Assembly: GCF_000019665.1 (NCBI RefSeq)
Contig: NC_010794.1
Span: 682,001 to 746,000, forward strand
DNA: 64,000 bases
Direction: 5' to 3'
Origin: Methylacidiphilum infernorum V4
Lineage (GTDB): Bacteria; Verrucomicrobiota; Verrucomicrobiia; Methylacidiphilales; Methylacidiphilaceae
Below, in pieces: positions 17,070 to 24,873 of the stretch. The notes beneath the pieces were generated by a model. The model was not told where the DNA came from and ran no database searches. It was given only the letters and a program-made list of their open reading frames with translations. The first letter of the stretch is position 1. Every line of letters starts with the position of its first letter. The position numbers and the translations under genes were made by a program.

Positions 17070-17714
17070 ATGAAAGAGAATAAAACCATGCTGTTCTTTC
17101 TTTTTTTCTTTTTTCCAATCTTGTCCCTTCCCCTTTTGGGAAAATCGCAAGCGGGGCGGCTCATTGCCCTGGTCAATAAAGAGCAATTGGACCTTTCAGA
17201 CTTAAAGGAAATAAACCGGATAGTCCAGTATTATTTTTTTCAAGCCGGCCTTGAAAAGATGGGCGAAGAAACCCCTATTTTTGTTTCCCATAAAAAAAGA
17301 TCGCTTTTGGGTCCTCGTCGTCCTATCCCTCCCGATTACCCTGCCAAGCTTATGTCATATGGTCATGCTCATGAGGAAACCCAATCCTATTCCTATCATT
17401 CGCCCGCTCATGCCCAAAGAGCGATCCGGAGCATCGAAGCGGAGATTAAAAGTAGGGAAAGTACTGACTGGGCGGCAATATCAGCGGGGCCATATTTTCT
17501 AACACCAACGAACTCCTCGGTCCATAGGCGCTTGACGGTGAGTTTTGATCCCCACCAAGTGGCCTGTTCTTTTCCCGAAATCCGAAAACTTTATGCCATC
17601 AATGGAAATCTCACCCGAAAAAATGCCTTGGATTATGCCGAAGGCAAAGCAGGAAAGATGGATGTCAGTTGTGTCTTCCAATCCGGTAGGCTAGTTCGGT
17701 TAACCTTTTATTAA
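17070..17714 (+). CDS. Secreted protein of unknown function
   Basis: Not recognised. The first 27 residues form a signal peptide: a charged start, a run of Phe/Leu, then LLGKSQA. The mature part is about 187 residues, mostly polar, with a His/Ser/Tyr-rich patch near residues 95-115 (YGHAHEETQSYSYHSPAHAQ) and a C-terminal section that looks beta-rich, ending RLVRLTFY. One cysteine pair (VACSF and VSCVF) could form a disulfide. AAGGA seven bases before the ATG supports the start. It leads the rightward group that continues with a small ORF and the ChaN-like gene. Confidence 0.7.
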   Translation: MKENKTMLFFLFFFFPILSLPLLGKSQAGRLIALVNKEQLDLSDLKEINRIVQYYFFQAGLEKMGEETPIFVSHKKRSLLGPRRPIPPDYPAKLMSYGHAHEETQSYSYHSPAHAQRAIRSIEAEIKSRESTDWAAISAGPYFLTPTNSSVHRRLTVSFDPHQVACSFPEIRKLYAINGNLTRKNALDYAEGKAGKMDVSCVFQSGRLVRLTFY

Positions 17715-17807
17715 TATAAATGCTTCCGGGCAAGCTTCCGGCCAAACAGAAAGGCGCTCAAGGACAATCCATCGTTTTAAAATGCTGGATAAAGGAGGGT
17801 CAAAAAA

Positions 17808-17876
17808 ATGAGCATTTTCTTTCCTTTTAGAAAAGAAACTTGGGTCAGAGACTTTCGGATCGACTTACTTCAATGA
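17808..17876 (+). CDS. Small ORF of 22 codons with a strong ribosome-binding site
   Basis: ATG 17808 is preceded by AAAGGAGGG at 17790-17799, one of the best Shine-Dalgarno sequences in the window, at an ideal distance. The peptide begins MSIFFPFRKETW and ends DLLQ before TGA. It is aromatic- and Arg-rich and stops 25 bases before the ChaN-like gene. It could be a leader peptide that governs the next gene by coupling, or an independent small protein. No homologue is known to me. Confidence 0.4.
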   Translation: MSIFFPFRKETWVRDFRIDLLQ

Positions 17877-17901
17877 AAGAAAGAAAGATCGGAGCTATGC
17901 C

Positions 17902-19212
17902 ATGAACCGGGATTTAAAGAAACTCAACGCCCTTGTGGTCAGTTGCGGGGAAATTCACGACCATGACCATTATCAAGCTTTGATTCGATCCCTTCCGGAA
18001 CTTGCCCGGAATCACTTTGTTTTAACCCTGGAGTTACCCCGGGATTTTAATCCGTTGATGAGAAAATTTATCGATAAGGCCACCTCCCTTTATGAAAAAG
18101 TAGCGGCTCATGAAATCCTTCCCGAAAAAGCGGAAAGAAAGGTCGATCAGCTTGAACTGGAGTTGATCGATAAAATGGAAAAAAAATACCCCAGTTCATT
18201 AAACTGGGAGTATGGGTTTTTCAAGTCTAGGGGAAGTCATTGCAGGAAAGAAAAAGGCAAATGGGTCATGGACGATCCGGTGGAAGGGAAGATAGTTTCT
18301 TCTATCGGTCATTACACGGACATCATGAGAGAGGTGGCTCGATACAATGCCGAGCATGGAAACCGACTCGGAGTTTATGCCGTTGATATCACCACGCGGG
18401 AAATGAAAGCCCAACAAAGGAAAAAAAACCTTTTTGTAGAAATCAACCTTCCCAAGGAATGTCAAAAAGCGGTGGACGACTATTTAGCGAAAGCAAAAAA
18501 AAGCGCCTTTTTGAGGAAAATACCCAAGGAAGGGTTAAAGGCAAAGTTTTTAGAAAACATAGAAAAAGAAGGGATTCCGCTCGAAAAGGAGCAAAAAGAG
18601 ATTTTATTAGGCAAGTTAGATTTTCTAGCCAGGCTGCAAAGAAAAGACAAAAGCCTTACTGTTTTGACGAAGAACCTAGACAAAACGGCATTTCGATATT
18701 TCGTTGAGAATTACCCCATAAAAGAGAAAGCGGGAGACATGAACACCCGATTGAATTCTGCTTTTCTTGACTACAGGGACCGGAGGATGGCGGGCAATGA
18801 TCCGAAACCCGAAGACAGGCGGTTCGGCCCTTGTGATATAAAAAAAGTGGCTTTATCCTATCCTTATCATTATCCCGGACCTCGGATATTGCATTGGGGC
18901 GGAGCTGCACACCTTGGTGAATGGAAACGGAAAACCAACCTGCCGTTGGAATTAGGAAAAGCGGGTTTTCCCCACGGGCTAACCGCCGATGCTTACACGG
19001 TTGACATTCTCTCCCCGGAGGCTTCTCTCGATGAGAAGGGAAGATGGGAAAGGCGTTATCCAACGGACTTTGTCTTTGAGAGCCAGAAGGGTTTACTTAA
19101 GGCCGTGCAAGAGGGGATCAAAGGACAGGAAAAAACGGCCGCTGGGCATGCGACTATCTCTACCGCCGGGTCAATAACGGGAAAGCAAAAAAATAGCGAA
19201 AAACAAAGGTGA
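17902..19212 (+). CDS. ChaN/EreA/TIKI-like superfamily protein (putative), function unknown
   Basis: A soluble 436-residue protein with no signal peptide. The N-terminus has the superfamily's opening pattern: a hydrophobic strand, then Gly-Glu-x-His (VVSCGEIHDHDH, Glu17, His19), then LPELA and a strand ending LELPRD (Glu44). A central segment reads like helix-Asn-x-x-His-Gly then VYAVDI. A late strand-Gly-Gly-x-x-His element (LHWGGAAHL, His337) matches the family's second site. Such folds occur in haem-uptake ChaN, erythromycin esterases and TIKI metalloproteases. A Lys/Glu-rich insert covers about residues 195-265. Its place beside a TrbL-like array raises the idea of a secreted or toxin-like role, which is speculation. 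Confidence 0.5.
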   Translation: MNRDLKKLNALVVSCGEIHDHDHYQALIRSLPELARNHFVLTLELPRDFNPLMRKFIDKATSLYEKVAAHEILPEKAERKVDQLELELIDKMEKKYPSSLNWEYGFFKSRGSHCRKEKGKWVMDDPVEGKIVSSIGHYTDIMREVARYNAEHGNRLGVYAVDITTREMKAQQRKKNLFVEINLPKECQKAVDDYLAKAKKSAFLRKIPKEGLKAKFLENIEKEGIPLEKEQKEILLGKLDFLARLQRKDKSLTVLTKNLDKTAFRYFVENYPIKEKAGDMNTRLNSAFLDYRDRRMAGNDPKPEDRRFGPCDIKKVALSYPYHYPGPRILHWGGAAHLGEWKRKTNLPLELGKAGFPHGLTADAYTVDILSPEASLDEKGRWERRYPTDFVFESQKGLLKAVQEGIKGQEKTAAGHATISTAGSITGKQKNSEKQR

Positions 19213-19213
19213 T

Positions 19214-20017
19214 TTACCTGTACCAGGCGTACCATTCGACCTGTATTTTTTGATCGATGTGGTGAATGTTTTGCCATAGCCAGTAGGCCTGGCTGCCGAA
19301 AATCTTGTATCCTAGAGGAGAGAGCATAAAAAAGCTGTTGCATAACCACTGGAGAAAATAGGGAGAGGTAGTTTTCCCGATGCCCGGGATAACCCTGAAC
19401 ATCTGGCCAAGATCAAGGACGAAGGTGAAATACAAGGGTTGGTCGCTATCCCCGTTGACTATGTAATAAAACTTATCGATTTTTTCATAAGCTTGGTCGG
19501 GAAGAACGTTAAATTCAGCCTGTATTTGTGAAGTGTATCCCCCGTAAGAATGGAAAGGCTCTGAAAGCCAAACGTATTCGGCATAAGAGGAGGCATAGTG
19601 TCGAGCAAATATTTTTTTTGCTTCTTCTCGTGGATATCTTCTCATGGTTACAGGAGAGCCGTTGAACCAGCCTTTGACCCACAATGCAGGAAACTTGGGA
19701 TCTTCGGGTAAAAAAAGATTGCCGACTCCGCCGAAAGGCATTGGAGGGAGCACCGAAGAGTATTTCCAGTCAAAAAAAACGTGGGGTTCTTTTATCGGAG
19801 ATCCGGGCTTTTGGGTAAGGAAAAGCCGGGCATAAATGTCCACCCTCTCGTAATAAGAGGCAAAAAAATAAAAACAGAAAAGGATCGAAGGAATCGACAA
19901 TAACCCCATGACTCTTAGAGTATAGGGAAAATGCTTGTGGTAAGAGAATAAAAAATTCCATCTTTCCTGTGCTGCTTGCACGGGATAGAATAAAAGGAGG
20001 TTTAAATACAACTGCAT
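19214..20017 (-). CDS. Diverged fourth member of the WYAWYR membrane-anchored family
   Basis: Function unknown. It shares with the three genes upstream a single membrane segment followed by YA-LFLT, the strand PEDPKFPALWVKGWFNG, a central YVWLSEP, and the C-terminus IDQKIQVEWYAWYR. It is 267 residues because of about 45 extra N-terminal residues before the membrane segment (YTLRVMGLLSIPSILFCFYF). The internal ATG of RVMGLL is too far downstream to keep the charged lead, so the longer start is kept with modest confidence. It lies at the end of the leftward array and is much less similar to the others than they are to each other, marking it as the older branch. Its stop is one base from the convergent ChaN-like gene. 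Confidence 0.7.
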   Translation of the reverse strand: MQLYLNLLLFYPVQAAQERWNFLFSYHKHFPYTLRVMGLLSIPSILFCFYFFASYYERVDIYARLFLTQKPGSPIKEPHVFFDWKYSSVLPPMPFGGVGNLFLPEDPKFPALWVKGWFNGSPVTMRRYPREEAKKIFARHYASSYAEYVWLSEPFHSYGGYTSQIQAEFNVLPDQAYEKIDKFYYIVNGDSDQPLYFTFVLDLGQMFRVIPGIGKTTSPYFLQWLCNSFFMLSPLGYKIFGSQAYWLWQNIHHIDQKIQVEWYAWYR

Positions 20018-20122: not shown

Positions 20123-20785
20123 TTACCTATACCAGGCATACCACTGGACTCGGATTTTCTGGTCGATCCGGGGGACGTTGGTCCAGCGCCAGCTCAAGGT
20201 TGATCCCACCCGTTGGTAACCCGGGGGCTCGAGCCTGAAGAACGTCCCGTAAAGCCACTGGACGTAATAGGGGTTGGATTGCCGGCCTATGTCCGGGATC
20301 GCCATGGTGATCCCTCCAAGATCCATGGTAAAGGTCACTTCCTTTATGGGCCTGTCCAAGTCATCCCAGTTTAAAATACAGATATACTCATCGATCTTTT
20401 GAGCTCCCTCGGCGGGAAGAACGACAAACTCCGCCTGCTTGTGAAGCTCCCCATTTTCTTGGTAGCTAGAAAGCCACACGTAGCGGGAATGGCGTGAAGT
20501 TGTTCCCGTCATCCTTGATTGTGCGGCGGTGTACCTATGCATGGCGAGAGAACGGTCGTTGATCCAGGCCCTAGCCCAGAGAGCGGGATACCGGGGATCT
20601 TCGGGGATGTAGGCACGCATCCCATTATCTAAAGTGATTACTTTTTGGTCAAACCTGACATGGGCTTCAAGGGCATAAGGATAGGTTTTTGACCTGGTTA
20701 GGAACAACTTGGCATAAGTATGAGTCGATTCGATGACATGGTAGAGAAAGAAAAAAGAAAAGAGAGGAAAAAACCCAAAAACCAT
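20123..20785 (-). CDS. Array paralogue C: membrane-anchored WYAWYR-family protein
   Basis: Function unknown; 220 residues. One N-terminal membrane segment (VFGFFPLFSFFFLYHVIEST) is followed by a globular domain predicted outside the membrane. Marks shared with the neighbours are AYIPEDPRYPALWARAWIN, SRYVWLSS, HKQAEFVVLPAEGAQKIDEY, MDLGGITMAIP and the end IDQKIRVQWYAWYR. It differs from copies A and B mainly near residues 35-60 and around the YVWLS motif, so variation is clustered rather than even. TATAAT occurs about 27 bases upstream of the ATG, in the gap after the preceding trbL fragment. Confidence 0.75.
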   Translation of the reverse strand: MVFGFFPLFSFFFLYHVIESTHTYAKLFLTRSKTYPYALEAHVRFDQKVITLDNGMRAYIPEDPRYPALWARAWINDRSLAMHRYTAAQSRMTGTTSRHSRYVWLSSYQENGELHKQAEFVVLPAEGAQKIDEYICILNWDDLDRPIKEVTFTMDLGGITMAIPDIGRQSNPYYVQWLYGTFFRLEPPGYQRVGSTLSWRWTNVPRIDQKIRVQWYAWYR

Positions 20786-20819
20786 GGTTCTTGAAGAATG
20801 TGTATTATACCTGATTTAA

Positions 20820-21212
20820 TTATGGGGGTCCTTGTCCACCCTTCCCCGCTAGTGCCCTGATCACGCCGCCGACCCGGCCCTGGATGTTTTCTCCCACACC
20901 ACGCAGTCCCTCGATTCCTGCGCTGTGGACCCTTCCGAAATGCCCGCTAAAGCCTTCGAGGAGGGCTCCGGCCATGTCCGCAAAAGCCGAGGACCAACCG
21001 TAGGCGATCCTTACGGCCACGAGCGGAAACATGGACCCTGCGTAAATGAAAGCGGCCACGATGTTAATGCCCAGGGAATAAAGCACCCAGGCTCCCGAGG
21101 CTTGCAAAAGCCCAAGGATCGTGTAAACCACCGCACAGAGGAAAGGGGGCTGACCGCCGGAAATTGGGGATAGTTTCAATTTAATTGTCAATTTTTTTAA
21201 TGGATAAGGCAT
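20820..21212 (-). CDS. Chimeric trbL C-terminal fragment, copy 3
   Basis: A 130-residue open frame. The first 18 residues (MPYPLKKLTIKLKLSPIS) are unrelated to TrbL and strongly basic. From GGQPPFLCAVVY on, it matches the last ~108 residues of the complete trbL-like gene almost exactly. The retained part has two probable membrane segments and the Gly-rich cytoplasmic tail (GVGENIQGRVGGVIRALAGK). The last six residues (GGQGPP) differ from the other copies. Whether it is translated is unknown. The intact frame and added start argue against a plain remnant, though very recent duplication could also explain them. Confidence 0.65.
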   Translation of the reverse strand: MPYPLKKLTIKLKLSPISGGQPPFLCAVVYTILGLLQASGAWVLYSLGINIVAAFIYAGSMFPLVAVRIAYGWSSAFADMAGALLEGFSGHFGRVHSAGIEGLRGVGENIQGRVGGVIRALAGKGGQGPP

Positions 21213-21248
21213 AATCTTCTATTATTCATACAATAGTCCTTTCCATGG

Positions 21249-21926
21249 TTACCTATACCAGGCATACCACTGGACTCGGATTTTCTGGTCGATCCGGGGG
21301 ACGTTGGTCCAGCGCCAGCTCACGGTTGACCCCACCCTTTGGTAACCCGGGGGTTCAAGCCTGAAGAACGTCCCGTAAAGCCACTGGACGTAATAGGGGT
21401 TGGATTGCCGGCCTATGCCCGGGATCGCCATGGTGATTCCCCCAAGATCCATGGAAAAGGTCACTTCCTTTATGGGCCTGTCCAAGTCATCCCAGTTTAA
21501 AATACAGATATACTCATCAATCTTTTGAGCTCCCTCGGCGGGAAGAACGACAAACTCCGCCTGCTTGTGAAGCTCTCCGTTTTCTTGGTAGCCATTAGAA
21601 AGCCACACGTAGCGGGAATGGCGTGAAGTACCTGACACCATCATTCTTGCTTGGGCGGCGGAATACTTATGCATGGCGAGAGAACGGCCGTTGATCCAGG
21701 CCTTTGCCCAAAGGGCGGGATACCGGGGGTCTTCGGGGATGTAGGCATGGCTTATCCTTACCCCATCGTAAAAATAATCGACCCTTTGATCAAACCCAAC
21801 ATGAGCTTGTAGTCCGTAGGGATATGTCTTTGCCCGTGTTAAGAACAGCTTGGCGTAAGTATGGGTCGATTCGATGAAATAATAGAGAAAGAAAAAAGAA
21901 AAGAGAGGAAGTAGCCCAAAAAGCAT
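21249..21926 (-). CDS. Array paralogue B: membrane-anchored WYAWYR-family protein
   Basis: 225 residues, function unknown. A membrane anchor (FGLLPLFSFFFLYYFIEST) leads into the same external domain as copies A and C. It has small insertions relative to C (for example YDGVRISHAYIPEDPRYP, and an extra pair near MMVSGTSRH). The C-terminal 110 residues are almost identical to C. TTTGGAGCC sits just before the ATG. It lies 36 bases upstream of the next trbL fragment on the same strand, so the whole array may be one transcript. Confidence 0.75.
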   Translation of the reverse strand: MLFGLLPLFSFFFLYYFIESTHTYAKLFLTRAKTYPYGLQAHVGFDQRVDYFYDGVRISHAYIPEDPRYPALWAKAWINGRSLAMHKYSAAQARMMVSGTSRHSRYVWLSNGYQENGELHKQAEFVVLPAEGAQKIDEYICILNWDDLDRPIKEVTFSMDLGGITMAIPGIGRQSNPYYVQWLYGTFFRLEPPGYQRVGSTVSWRWTNVPRIDQKIRVQWYAWYR

Positions 21927-21956
21927 GGCTCCAAATAAAACTTTTTATCCTTGGTT

Positions 21957-22343
21957 CTAAGGTATTATATCCTTCCCCGCTAGTGCCCTGATCACGCCGC
22001 CGACCCGTCCCTGGATGTTTTCTCCCACACCACGCAGTCCCTCGATTCCGGCAGAATGGACCCTTCCGAAATGCCCGCTGAAGCCTTCGAGGAGGGCTCC
22101 GGCCATGTCCGCAAAAGCCGAGGACCAACCGTAGGCTATTCTTACGGCCACGAGCGGAAACATGGACCCTGCGTAAATGAAAGCGGCCACGATGTTAATG
22201 CCCAGGGAATAAAGCACCCAGGCTCCCGAGGCTTGCAAAAGCCCAAGGATCGTGTAGACCACCGCACAAAGGAAAGGGGGCTGACCGCCGGAAATTGGGG
22301 ATAGTTTCAATTTAATTGTCAATTTTTTTAATGGATAAGGCAT
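21957..22343 (-). CDS. Chimeric trbL C-terminal fragment, copy 2
   Basis: 128 residues with the same foreign 18-residue basic leader as copy 3, joined to the TrbL C-terminal region at the Gly-Gly before QPPFLC. GAGAAG precedes the ATG at a short distance, and TATAAAT lies about 18 bases upstream. It ends ALAGKDIIP, whereas the complete gene ends ALAGKDWT. Two membrane segments are kept, so a product would be a small membrane protein, perhaps able to compete with or pair with the full channel protein (inference). Confidence 0.65.
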   Translation of the reverse strand: MPYPLKKLTIKLKLSPISGGQPPFLCAVVYTILGLLQASGAWVLYSLGINIVAAFIYAGSMFPLVAVRIAYGWSSAFADMAGALLEGFSGHFGRVHSAGIEGLRGVGENIQGRVGGVIRALAGKDIIP

Positions 22344-22379
22344 AATCTTCTCTTATTTATACAATAGTCCTTTCCATGG

Positions 22380-23048
22380 TTACCTATACCAGGCATACCA
22401 CTGGACGCGGATTTTCTGGTCGATCCGGGGGACGTTGGTCCAGCGCCAGCTCAAGGTTGATCCCACCCGTTGGTAACCCGGGGGCTCGAGCCTGAAGAAC
22501 GTCCCGTAAAGCCACTGGACGTAGTAGGGGTTGGATTGCCGGCCTATGCCCGGGATCGCCATGGTGATTCCCCCAAGGTCCATGGTAAAGGTCACTTCCT
22601 TTATTGGTCTATCGAGATGGTCCCAATTAAGGATGCAAACATACTCATCGATCTTTTGAGCTCCCTCGGCGGGAAGAACGACAAACTCCGCCTGCTTGTG
22701 AAGCTCTCCAGTTTCCTGGAAATCGTTGGAAAGCCACACGTAGCGGGAATGGCGTGAAGGTGTTCCTGTCATCCTTGCTTGTGCTACGGAATACTTATGC
22801 ATGGTAAGGGGACGACCGTTGATCCAGGCCCTAGCCCAGAGGGCGGGATACCGGGGGTCTTCGGGGATGTAGGCATTGGAGTTCCCAGCATAAAAACAAT
22901 CAACTCTTTGATCGAACCCAACGTGAGCTTCAAGGGCATAGGGATAAGTTTTTGACCTGGTTAGGAACAACTTGGCATAAGTATGAGTCGATTCGATGAC
23001 ATGGTAGAGAAAGAAAAAAGAAAAGAAGTGAAGGAAACATAAAAGCAT
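22380..23048 (-). CDS. Array paralogue A: membrane-anchored WYAWYR-family protein
   Basis: 222 residues, function unknown. It stands directly after the complete trbL-like gene, separated by about 60 bases, and is therefore likely the original partner. A membrane segment (LLCFLHFFSFFFLYHVIEST) is followed by the family domain with PEDPRYPALWARAWINGRP, SRYVWLSND, VVLPAEGAQKIDEY and the closing IDQKIRVQWYAWYR. One membrane pass plus an external domain is the layout of many secretion-channel accessory proteins, but I see no specific match to VirB8/TrbF or other named components. Confidence 0.75.
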   Translation of the reverse strand: MLLCFLHFFSFFFLYHVIESTHTYAKLFLTRSKTYPYALEAHVGFDQRVDCFYAGNSNAYIPEDPRYPALWARAWINGRPLTMHKYSVAQARMTGTPSRHSRYVWLSNDFQETGELHKQAEFVVLPAEGAQKIDEYVCILNWDHLDRPIKEVTFTMDLGGITMAIPGIGRQSNPYYVQWLYGTFFRLEPPGYQRVGSTLSWRWTNVPRIDQKIRVQWYAWYR

Positions 23049-23109
23049 TGCTTCAAATTGATCTCAAAAACAAATTTAATAACAATCTCCGATCTTCCTT
23101 GATTATTTA

Positions 23110-24705
23110 TCAGGTCCAATCCTTCCCCGCTAGTGCCCTGATCACGCTGCCGACTCGGCCCTGGATGTTTTCTCCCACTCCACGCAGTCCCTCGATTCCT
23201 GCGCTGTGGACCCTTCCGAAATGCCCGCTAAAGCCTTCGAGGAGGGCTCCGGCCATGTCCGCAAAAGCCGAGGACCAACCGTAGGCGATCCTTACGGCTA
23301 CGAGCGGAAACATGGAGCCTGCGTAAATGAAAGCGGCAACGATGTTAATGCCCAGGGAATAAAGCACCCAGGCTCCCGAGGCTTGCAAAAGCCCAAGGAT
23401 CGTGTAGACCACCGCACAGAGGAAGGGGGGCTGACCGCCGGCAGCATTTGCTTGTTCTAAGCATTGTTGGATCGGTATACCTCCTAAAGCCCCGTTATTG
23501 GTAAAAATGCTTTGGAGAAAAACCTGTAGGAGGCTTGAAAAGTTCCCGATGCTGCCTCCAAAAAGATTGGAAAGACTGAGCCCGTTGATGGGCCAACCTA
23601 TGGTCGCCTCGATGATCATCGGGATCATCGCTCCCAGGGTAGTGGCCCCCGCCACAAATCCCATATCCCCACTGGCACTTATGCCAAAGAGGGTATTGAA
23701 AATGATATCCGCCATCATGTAGCCCAGGCCGGCCAGGATACAGTAAAGGGTGGGGACGATGGAAACGGCGACAAGACCCATGAGCATCGGTCTCCAGAGC
23801 CCACGGAAGGAAGCAAAAAAGGTCAGGGGGACAAGGGCGATGCCGAAACCCGTTAAGGCTTGGTAAGCCGCTTCGCTTCCACCCAAGAGAACGATTTGGC
23901 TGAAGATGATGGTAAAAATTGCTCCTATGCAAAGCAGGGCAGCCGCAAGCACGAGGGCGAACACCCAGCCGATGGAAGTCATGAGGGGGACGGCCCATAT
24001 CTGCATCGCGGTGATGGCCTGGGTAGCCGGTGCGGAGGGATCGGCTTTGACGACGTTCATCCAGGAAAGAAGCCCTTGGAAAGCTTGATTGAGGTACTTG
24101 TAGACCACGGGGTTGAAGATCGCCAGGTTGTTGGCCAGGCCAAACATCCGGCTTACAAATATCGGGCCAAATTTAAAGTCGGCTATGTTGCCCGGGCAGA
24201 CCGCCCCGGGAGAAGCGACCACCCCCACTCCACTCGAAGGGGGAACGTGGATCCAACAGATCCACCATTGGGTCGGGGTACTGCCCATTGGGGGATCGAA
24301 CGCCAAATTGGCTATCTCACGGCCCCACTGTAAGCCCCCTTGGATCAAGGCCTGCCTGCCGTAATCGATCAGGTGTTGGGGGAACTGCGCGTAGACGACG
24401 ATCCAGATAATCACCGCATGAATGGTGTAATCGATCAGCTCATCGATGATCGGTCTTCCGAAAGCAACGCGGAACCCTCCCATGGCCGCAGCCATGAAAA
24501 ACAGAAAAGGAGCGATCGTTACAGCGATCGCTTGGCCTTCCTGCCTTGCCTGTTGGCCAAACTGAAAAACTTTTTGGATAAGGGGTCCTAGGCTTGGATC
24601 TACCCCGGAAAGAGCCCCGTTAGGTTGGTAGGGTTGCTGTTGGCCATAGGCTAGGGGAATAAAAAATAAAAAGAAGAACAATAAGAAGAGAGCCTTTTTA
24701 GCCAT
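23110..24705 (-). CDS. TrbL/VirB6-like polytopic membrane protein (conjugation/type IV secretion type)
   Basis: 531 residues from ATG 24705, which begins a signal-like segment (MAKKALFLLFFFLFF to YGQQQ) and has AGGAA upstream. Upstream in-frame codons add 37 residues that look like noise. Several hydrophobic spans follow (for example TIAPFLFFMAAAMGGF, FALVLAAALLCIGAIFTIIF, GIALVPLTFFASF), then the region reused in the downstream fragments. The order of spans, the central soluble loop and the Gly-rich tail resemble TrbL/VirB6 inner-membrane channel subunits. No VirB4, VirD4, VirB8-10 or relaxase gene is in the window, so either the rest lies elsewhere or the protein works on its own. Confidence 0.65.
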   Translation of the reverse strand: MAKKALFLLFFFLFFIPLAYGQQQPYQPNGALSGVDPSLGPLIQKVFQFGQQARQEGQAIAVTIAPFLFFMAAAMGGFRVAFGRPIIDELIDYTIHAVIIWIVVYAQFPQHLIDYGRQALIQGGLQWGREIANLAFDPPMGSTPTQWWICWIHVPPSSGVGVVASPGAVCPGNIADFKFGPIFVSRMFGLANNLAIFNPVVYKYLNQAFQGLLSWMNVVKADPSAPATQAITAMQIWAVPLMTSIGWVFALVLAAALLCIGAIFTIIFSQIVLLGGSEAAYQALTGFGIALVPLTFFASFRGLWRPMLMGLVAVSIVPTLYCILAGLGYMMADIIFNTLFGISASGDMGFVAGATTLGAMIPMIIEATIGWPINGLSLSNLFGGSIGNFSSLLQVFLQSIFTNNGALGGIPIQQCLEQANAAGGQPPFLCAVVYTILGLLQASGAWVLYSLGINIVAAFIYAGSMFPLVAVRIAYGWSSAFADMAGALLEGFSGHFGRVHSAGIEGLRGVGENIQGRVGSVIRALAGKDWT

Positions 24706-24873
24706 GAATGAATTCCTATGTTTATTTAAATAGGCAATTTTTTTGGGGATGCCTTTACCCAAAAGGCTTCTTTTTTCTTTGATCGTGAAAAGAAAAGAAT
24801 GCGCCAACGAACGCATTCCTCTGCCTGGATTTTTTATTTGTAACTCAACTAAGAAGGAGTAATTATTATAGCT

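Follow-up and report, generated by a model that had tools for sequence, protein, structure and literature searches.

A tandem array of paired genes on the minus strand of the Methylacidiphilum infernorum V4 chromosome is one of three that arose separately, in V4, in a second Methylacidiphilum (G009) and in a third genus (G012), and sequence comparison indicates that the array units exchange sequence by gene conversion. The array lies in the window analysed here, a stretch of 64,000 nucleotides (G000:C1:682001-746000) from the V4 genome (G000), whose contig is single, complete and 2,287,145 bases long. Its components are a VirB6/TrbL-like gene, hereafter T, and the gene of an exported partner, P; in G012 the partner is an unrelated lipoprotein, Q. 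We tentatively suggest that the locus may be an accessory module, amplified in copy number, of a divergent type IV secretion system (T4SS) encoded on the chromosome, with P likely a dispensable envelope protein of the exclusion or immunity type.

On the minus strand the V4 genes follow the order T, P_C, T fragment 2, P_B, T fragment 3, P_A and P_D, and the array frames are open (Table 1). Full-length T may also begin at an in-frame upstream start at 24816, giving 568 aa. Fragments 2 and 3 have in common a new 18-residue N-terminus, MPYPLKKLTIKLKLSPIS, and both retain the last two hydrophobic segments of T. The original prediction, made from the letters of this DNA, had described a complete T and partner followed by two units of T C-terminal part and partner, in frame on one strand, with nearly identical T parts and with copies two and three offset by 1131 bases. 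Open reading frames and repeats agree with this, the T-fragment repeats being 96–98% identical across 300 nt and spaced 1131 and 1150 nt apart. All of the units it listed are present, although it overlooked P_D, which is 45% identical to P_C, and the last of the five P paralogues of V4, at G000:C1:1083491-1084117. An assembly artefact was considered and rejected as unlikely, because the assembly forms one complete contig, many sites distinguish the copies and G009, a second single-contig genome, has an array of its own.

Evidence from gene neighbourhood and co-occurrence connects T to a T4SS. A T homologue in Methylacidimicrobium (41–45%) lies inside a chromosomal T4SS cluster with a VirD4-like ATPase, and the gene directly before it would be VirB5/TrbJ-like to judge from its signal sequence and coiled-coil end, with no Pfam match. 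Of 13 family genomes, 12 have both T and VirB4, and the remaining one, G007, has neither; G007 is a draft assembly whose absences are less certain. VirB4 was missed by PF03135, the N-terminal VirB4 Pfam model, and was found by a search with the TraG P-loop domain. The nearest named relative of the genome in our sample is Methylacidiphilum sp. Yel (L009), at 88% for T. In V4 the T4SS cluster, without T, is located at ~1.083–1.127 Mb, 0.4 Mb from the array, and encodes a VirD4-like ATPase (PF02534, 1e-9), a type II/IV ATPase (PF00437, 3e-81), VirB10/TrbI (PF03743, 5e-19), a VirB4-like TraG P-loop ATPase (3e-22), ParB and a protein with a weak VirB2 match (0.002). Because of the Methylacidimicrobium T4SS synteny and the co-occurrence with VirB4, T is most likely the VirB6-like component of a divergent T4SS, and its gene would have moved to a locus of its own in Methylacidiphilum. 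The earlier "TrbL/VirB6-like" label is thus backed by synteny, co-occurrence and the polytopic membrane character of T, in the absence of a profile match: T had no Pfam hit, the TrbL/VirB6 profile PF04610 matched in 0 of 13 family genomes, and searches of Pfam, NCBIfam, PHROGs, PADLOC and PDB sequences did not recognise T. Against seven plasmid TrbL proteins, hhalign gave no significant match to T (E 0.13), with a 34-column segment aligned at the matching N-terminal position. T has nine hydrophobic segments, the first probably a signal sequence, and each fragment has two. Small exported or membrane genes of the T4SS cluster (L074:8240-11209, L076:17493-19691) were read as PilN/PilO-like and secretin-domain-like, with no Pfam match, and a PilB/GspE-type ATPase also occurs there; the cluster is a possible hybrid of T4SS and type IV pilus.

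P has an N-terminal hydrophobic segment followed by ~190 residues that end in WYAWYR. It matched no Pfam or NCBIfam family and none of VirB2, VirB5 or VirB7, and no relatives were found among viral contigs; in our sample the family is limited to Methylacidiphilaceae (5 of 388 genomes of the phylum). AlphaFold models of P and T (predicted local distance difference test, pLDDT, of 47 and 33, respectively) were too poor for fold searches. As the original prediction had noticed, the last ~110 residues are nearly fixed in the V4 copies (non-synonymous divergence, dN, 0.012–0.027). Its placing of the variation in the first third and one loop was approximately right; the variable sites are in fact four short indel-bearing stretches (residues ~49–58, 86–98, 107–113 and 142–147) together with the first 10 residues. 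On its distribution P is accessory and dispensable, because G008 has T and VirB4 without P, whereas G007 has four P matches and neither T nor VirB4. The fifth V4 paralogue is found on the margin of the T4SS cluster, and G010 has one at the equivalent position; in the clusters of G002 and G003, T has P copies nearby. A Methylacidimicrobium genome carries four tandem P paralogues without T fragments in its T4SS region (L071:5675-9076).

Comparison of relatives shows that the arrays were assembled more than once. At the G009 locus a single full T is accompanied by seven array P genes and by five clipped T copies, whose cut points differ from those of V4. One kind of clipped copy starts at residue ~208, and in the other a new hydrophobic N-terminus precedes residues ~200–220 fused to 401–566. 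In G010 and Yel, T and P are each present once, and the copy number among close relatives is 0, 1, 3 or 7. In trees of the T end, the P front and the P back, copies cluster by species. In G012, clipped T copies (93–100% alike) alternate with Q genes at ~1.8 kb spacing. Q carries a lipobox and matched no known family; its eight or nine matches all fall within this locus. The Q copies are rich in cysteine, with common ends and differing middles, and the array is broken over two contigs (C24, C38; L108:7723-17010 and L109:1-1656). An hhalign comparison (E 0.32) did not support treating P and Q as one family. In G010 the gene immediately upstream of T is a SUKH gene (L066:5172-6374), and a decayed, many-stop relative occupies the same place in G009 (G009:C1:1811377-1812199).

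Within the arrays, divergence is distributed unevenly. Synonymous divergence (dS) along one unit is 0.09–0.20 in the T end, 0.43–1.13 in P residues 1–57 and 0.14–0.35 in residues 112–222. G009 contains mosaic units, in which T3 resembles T5 (dS 0.014), yet P3 resembles P4, with zero amino-acid changes in residues 58–111. A PHI-type test in our own implementation gave p 5e-4 in G009, and GENECONV-type run tests gave p 2e-4 in both V4 and G009. Copy-specific changes in clipped T comprise 18 synonymous and 3 non-synonymous changes (p 1e-8 under neutrality; omega ~0.06, a figure that could be lowered by import of changes from unsampled functional T genes), and omega of P is ~0.33 for residues 1–111 and ~0.09 for the remainder. 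Since their frames are open and the protein-level constraint is strong, the clipped T pieces are probably made as protein, and a purely silent role is hard to reconcile with that constraint. There is also a plain reason for P to be copied together with the T end, because the P start and its Shine-Dalgarno overlap it: of six P starts in G009, four form an ATGA overlap with the T stop, and the closing codons of T contain the run GGAAAGGA, which could act as the Shine-Dalgarno of P. The V4 gaps between T and P are about 61, 30 and 34 nt, and strict coupling is unsupported there. Coupling explains neither the protein-level constraint on the T end nor the P copies without a T piece.

The following scheme would accommodate these observations. 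The 3' part of T and the exported gene directly downstream were duplicated jointly in tandem, separately in several lineages and with different T cut points, and gene conversion now keeps the T piece and the C-terminal half of P near-uniform while the P loops stay variable. If P was translationally coupled to T in the ancestral layout, a working P copy would have to carry the T end, and the T membrane hairpin may serve both as an expression lead-in and as a membrane partner of P. P itself may be an envelope protein that recognises the T4SS machinery or cargo of neighbouring cells, acting as a dispensable recognition, exclusion or immunity factor, and the array would then supply several recognition variants to one cell. 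We favour exclusion or immunity over a structural subunit because P occurs without a T4SS, T4SSs occur without P, and plasmid exclusion genes abut VirB6: those of IncP, IncW and IncN plasmids adjoin the VirB6 gene (PMC11493245). P, directly downstream of T, is likewise a small envelope-protein gene abutting a VirB6 homologue, as for entry exclusion factors. With more reserve, we propose that Methylacidiphilaceae repeatedly make recombining arrays of clipped VirB6 and an exported variable partner, unrelated between genera, which might form a general, undescribed repertoire of T4SS exclusion, immunity or recognition variants with clipped VirB6 as a working docking or decoy protein.

Several points weigh against this interpretation. 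The VirB6 assignment of T has no sequence match behind it, and family searches found no homology of P or Q to known exclusion or immunity proteins. Exclusion partners usually co-vary, yet the T end shows hardly any variation. Nor is the T piece always required, as G009 P7, P_D and the tandem Methylacidimicrobium P genes are without a T fragment, and one of the clipped T copies in G012 no longer has its C-terminus. The original suggestion of a diversity or copy-number system agrees with the differing copy numbers between species, the independent arrays, the sequence exchange and the loop variation, and its alternative of channel-end and partner pairs is half right, because only the partner varies and the channel-end piece hardly does.

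The closest comparison is with the Trw system of Bartonella, which has tandem trwL and trwJ-trwI-trwH (VirB5-VirB6-VirB7) units with variant surface components, the VirB6 copies being listed within the repeated unit beside VirB5 and VirB7 homologues (PMC2610397, PMC2883598). The earlier statement that no described system has such an architecture was therefore too strong. Like the V4 array, Trw combines tandem T4SS units that include a VirB6 homologue (trwI) with species-variable copy number, concerted evolution and one diversifying component (PMC2610397, PMC2883598). In V4, unlike Trw, all VirB6 copies except one retain just the C-terminal part, no VirB family matches the partners, and the locus stands apart from the remaining T4SS. 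The array thus resembles Trw in its genetics but is not a member, and what is new relative to Trw is the clipped VirB6, the unrelated partners and the recurrence. This precedent lends itself to another explanation, in which P proteins would be variant surface or pilus-associated T4SS subunits, co-expressed so that their loops bind different partner cells or surfaces. The predicted export of P, its conserved scaffold with indel-bearing loops, the paralogue at the cluster edge in V4 and G010 and the P genes near T in G002 and G003 would all suit it. It sits oddly, however, with a genome that has T and VirB4 but no P (G008) and another with P but neither (G007), which is strange for a structural part; P lacks homology to VirB2, VirB5 and VirB7, and the mean omega in its variable half is not above 1. 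On balance we consider it rather unlikely.

Two other explanations look improbable to us, the first slightly more so. If only the unit adjoining full T were expressed, the others could store P variants as silent donors, the T-end and P-end homology arms feeding gene conversion. Uniform blocks do flank a variable block, and conversion between units is significant, but all P genes and nearly all T pieces are open with their own starts, and purifying selection on clipped T is unexpected for silent arms; a weak test for a promoter-like site specific to unit 1 found none. In a promoter and terminator scan, sites were no more frequent than in shuffles. Alternatively, the locus may simply be prone to recombination, with unequal crossing-over duplicating T-P, copies kept by dosage or chance and P loops relaxed. 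Copy numbers of 0, 1, 3 or 7 in close relatives and the one broken T copy of G012 are what such a process might leave, but such arrays recurred independently in three lineages, with two unrelated partners, their frames have long stayed open and clipped T is under strong constraint, all of which speaks against it.

Other known systems share some of these features. Anaplasma phagocytophilum, like V4, has paralogous T4SS gene arrays, with 8–15 virB2 paralogues and four virB6 genes in one locus with hypervariable regions (PMC3556328). Unlike V4, this intracellular pathogen has virB6 paralogues with repeat-extended ends and no clipped fragments alternating with an exported partner. In entry exclusion pairs (VirB6/TraG/TraY with Eex/TrbK/ExcA/TraS), the VirB6 homologue has beside it a small gene for an exported or membrane protein, variants exist and the product acts in the recipient (PMC11493245). 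They normally comprise one full VirB6 and one exclusion gene, whereas V4 has many partners and VirB6 fragments with no exclusion-protein homology. The bacteria-killing X-T4SS is chromosomal (PMC6536674), as is the V4 system, whose cluster holds toxin-like and SUKH immunity-like genes, but the V4 array itself has no toxin and no XVIPCD domain was demonstrated. Contact-dependent orphan toxin/immunity cassettes, of which the original prediction had been reminded, were rejected for the array itself: library searches of T and P found no toxin domain and no toxin, immunity or defence family in either.

The recurring rows of these genes in related bacteria suggest a changeable accessory module of the T4SS, V4 being a heat- and acid-loving methane-eater. 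Were the array to serve as a repertoire for recognition or exclusion, it would show how a chromosomal T4SS stays specific towards neighbouring cells, and the relatives would provide a natural copy series (0, 1, 3, 7) for testing the function of VirB6-adjacent genes. Independent origin with two unrelated partners would point to selection on pairing a VirB6 end with an exported protein, which bears on the plasmid exclusion genes beside VirB6. The little-studied T4SS of extremophile methanotrophs is thereby linked to toxin- and immunity-like genes.

Table 1. Genes of the V4 array and its flank, in positions of the window.
Feature	Position	Strand	Length	Remarks
T, full-length polytopic VirB6/TrbL-like membrane protein	23110..24705	-	531 aa	
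P_C, exported partner adjoining full-length T	22380..23048	-		
T fragment 2, new 18-residue leader and C-terminal two-helix part of T	21957..22343	-	128 aa	
P_B, second partner variant	21249..21926	-		
T fragment 3	20820..21212	-	130 aa	
P_A, third partner variant	20123..20785	-		
P_D, divergent fourth partner paralogue, no T fragment	19214..20017	-		kept near locus in sister species
436-aa neighbour gene	17902..19212	+	436 aa	GEIHD / HWGGAxHLGE motifs; linked to array by position only
214-aa exported neighbour, upstream of 436-aa gene	17070..17714	+	214 aa	very fast-evolving

Beside the array, the 436-aa protein carries a YRDxRM motif in addition to GEIHD and HWGGAxHLGE, evolves fast, is kept near T in sister species and has a weak Tiki/ChaN match (E 0.04 in sister proteins). 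The 214-aa exported protein is about 26% identical to its G009 counterpart, and the two genes (17070-19212) are a possible effector/immunity pair. Inside the T4SS cluster, a 599-aa protein (G000:C1:1099882-1106300; L076:9383-15801) has a glycine zipper and an N-terminal motif that we read as HNH-like, with no Pfam nuclease match, and three tandem SUKH (SMI1/KNR4) immunity-like genes adjoin it. Near 272-276 kb there is another protein of this kind, again with a SUKH gene (L094:172-1944; match at G000:C1:275224-275664). Both proteins and a third open reading frame of 226 aa have in common a C-terminal region of ~149 residues (90–91%), a candidate secretion signal.

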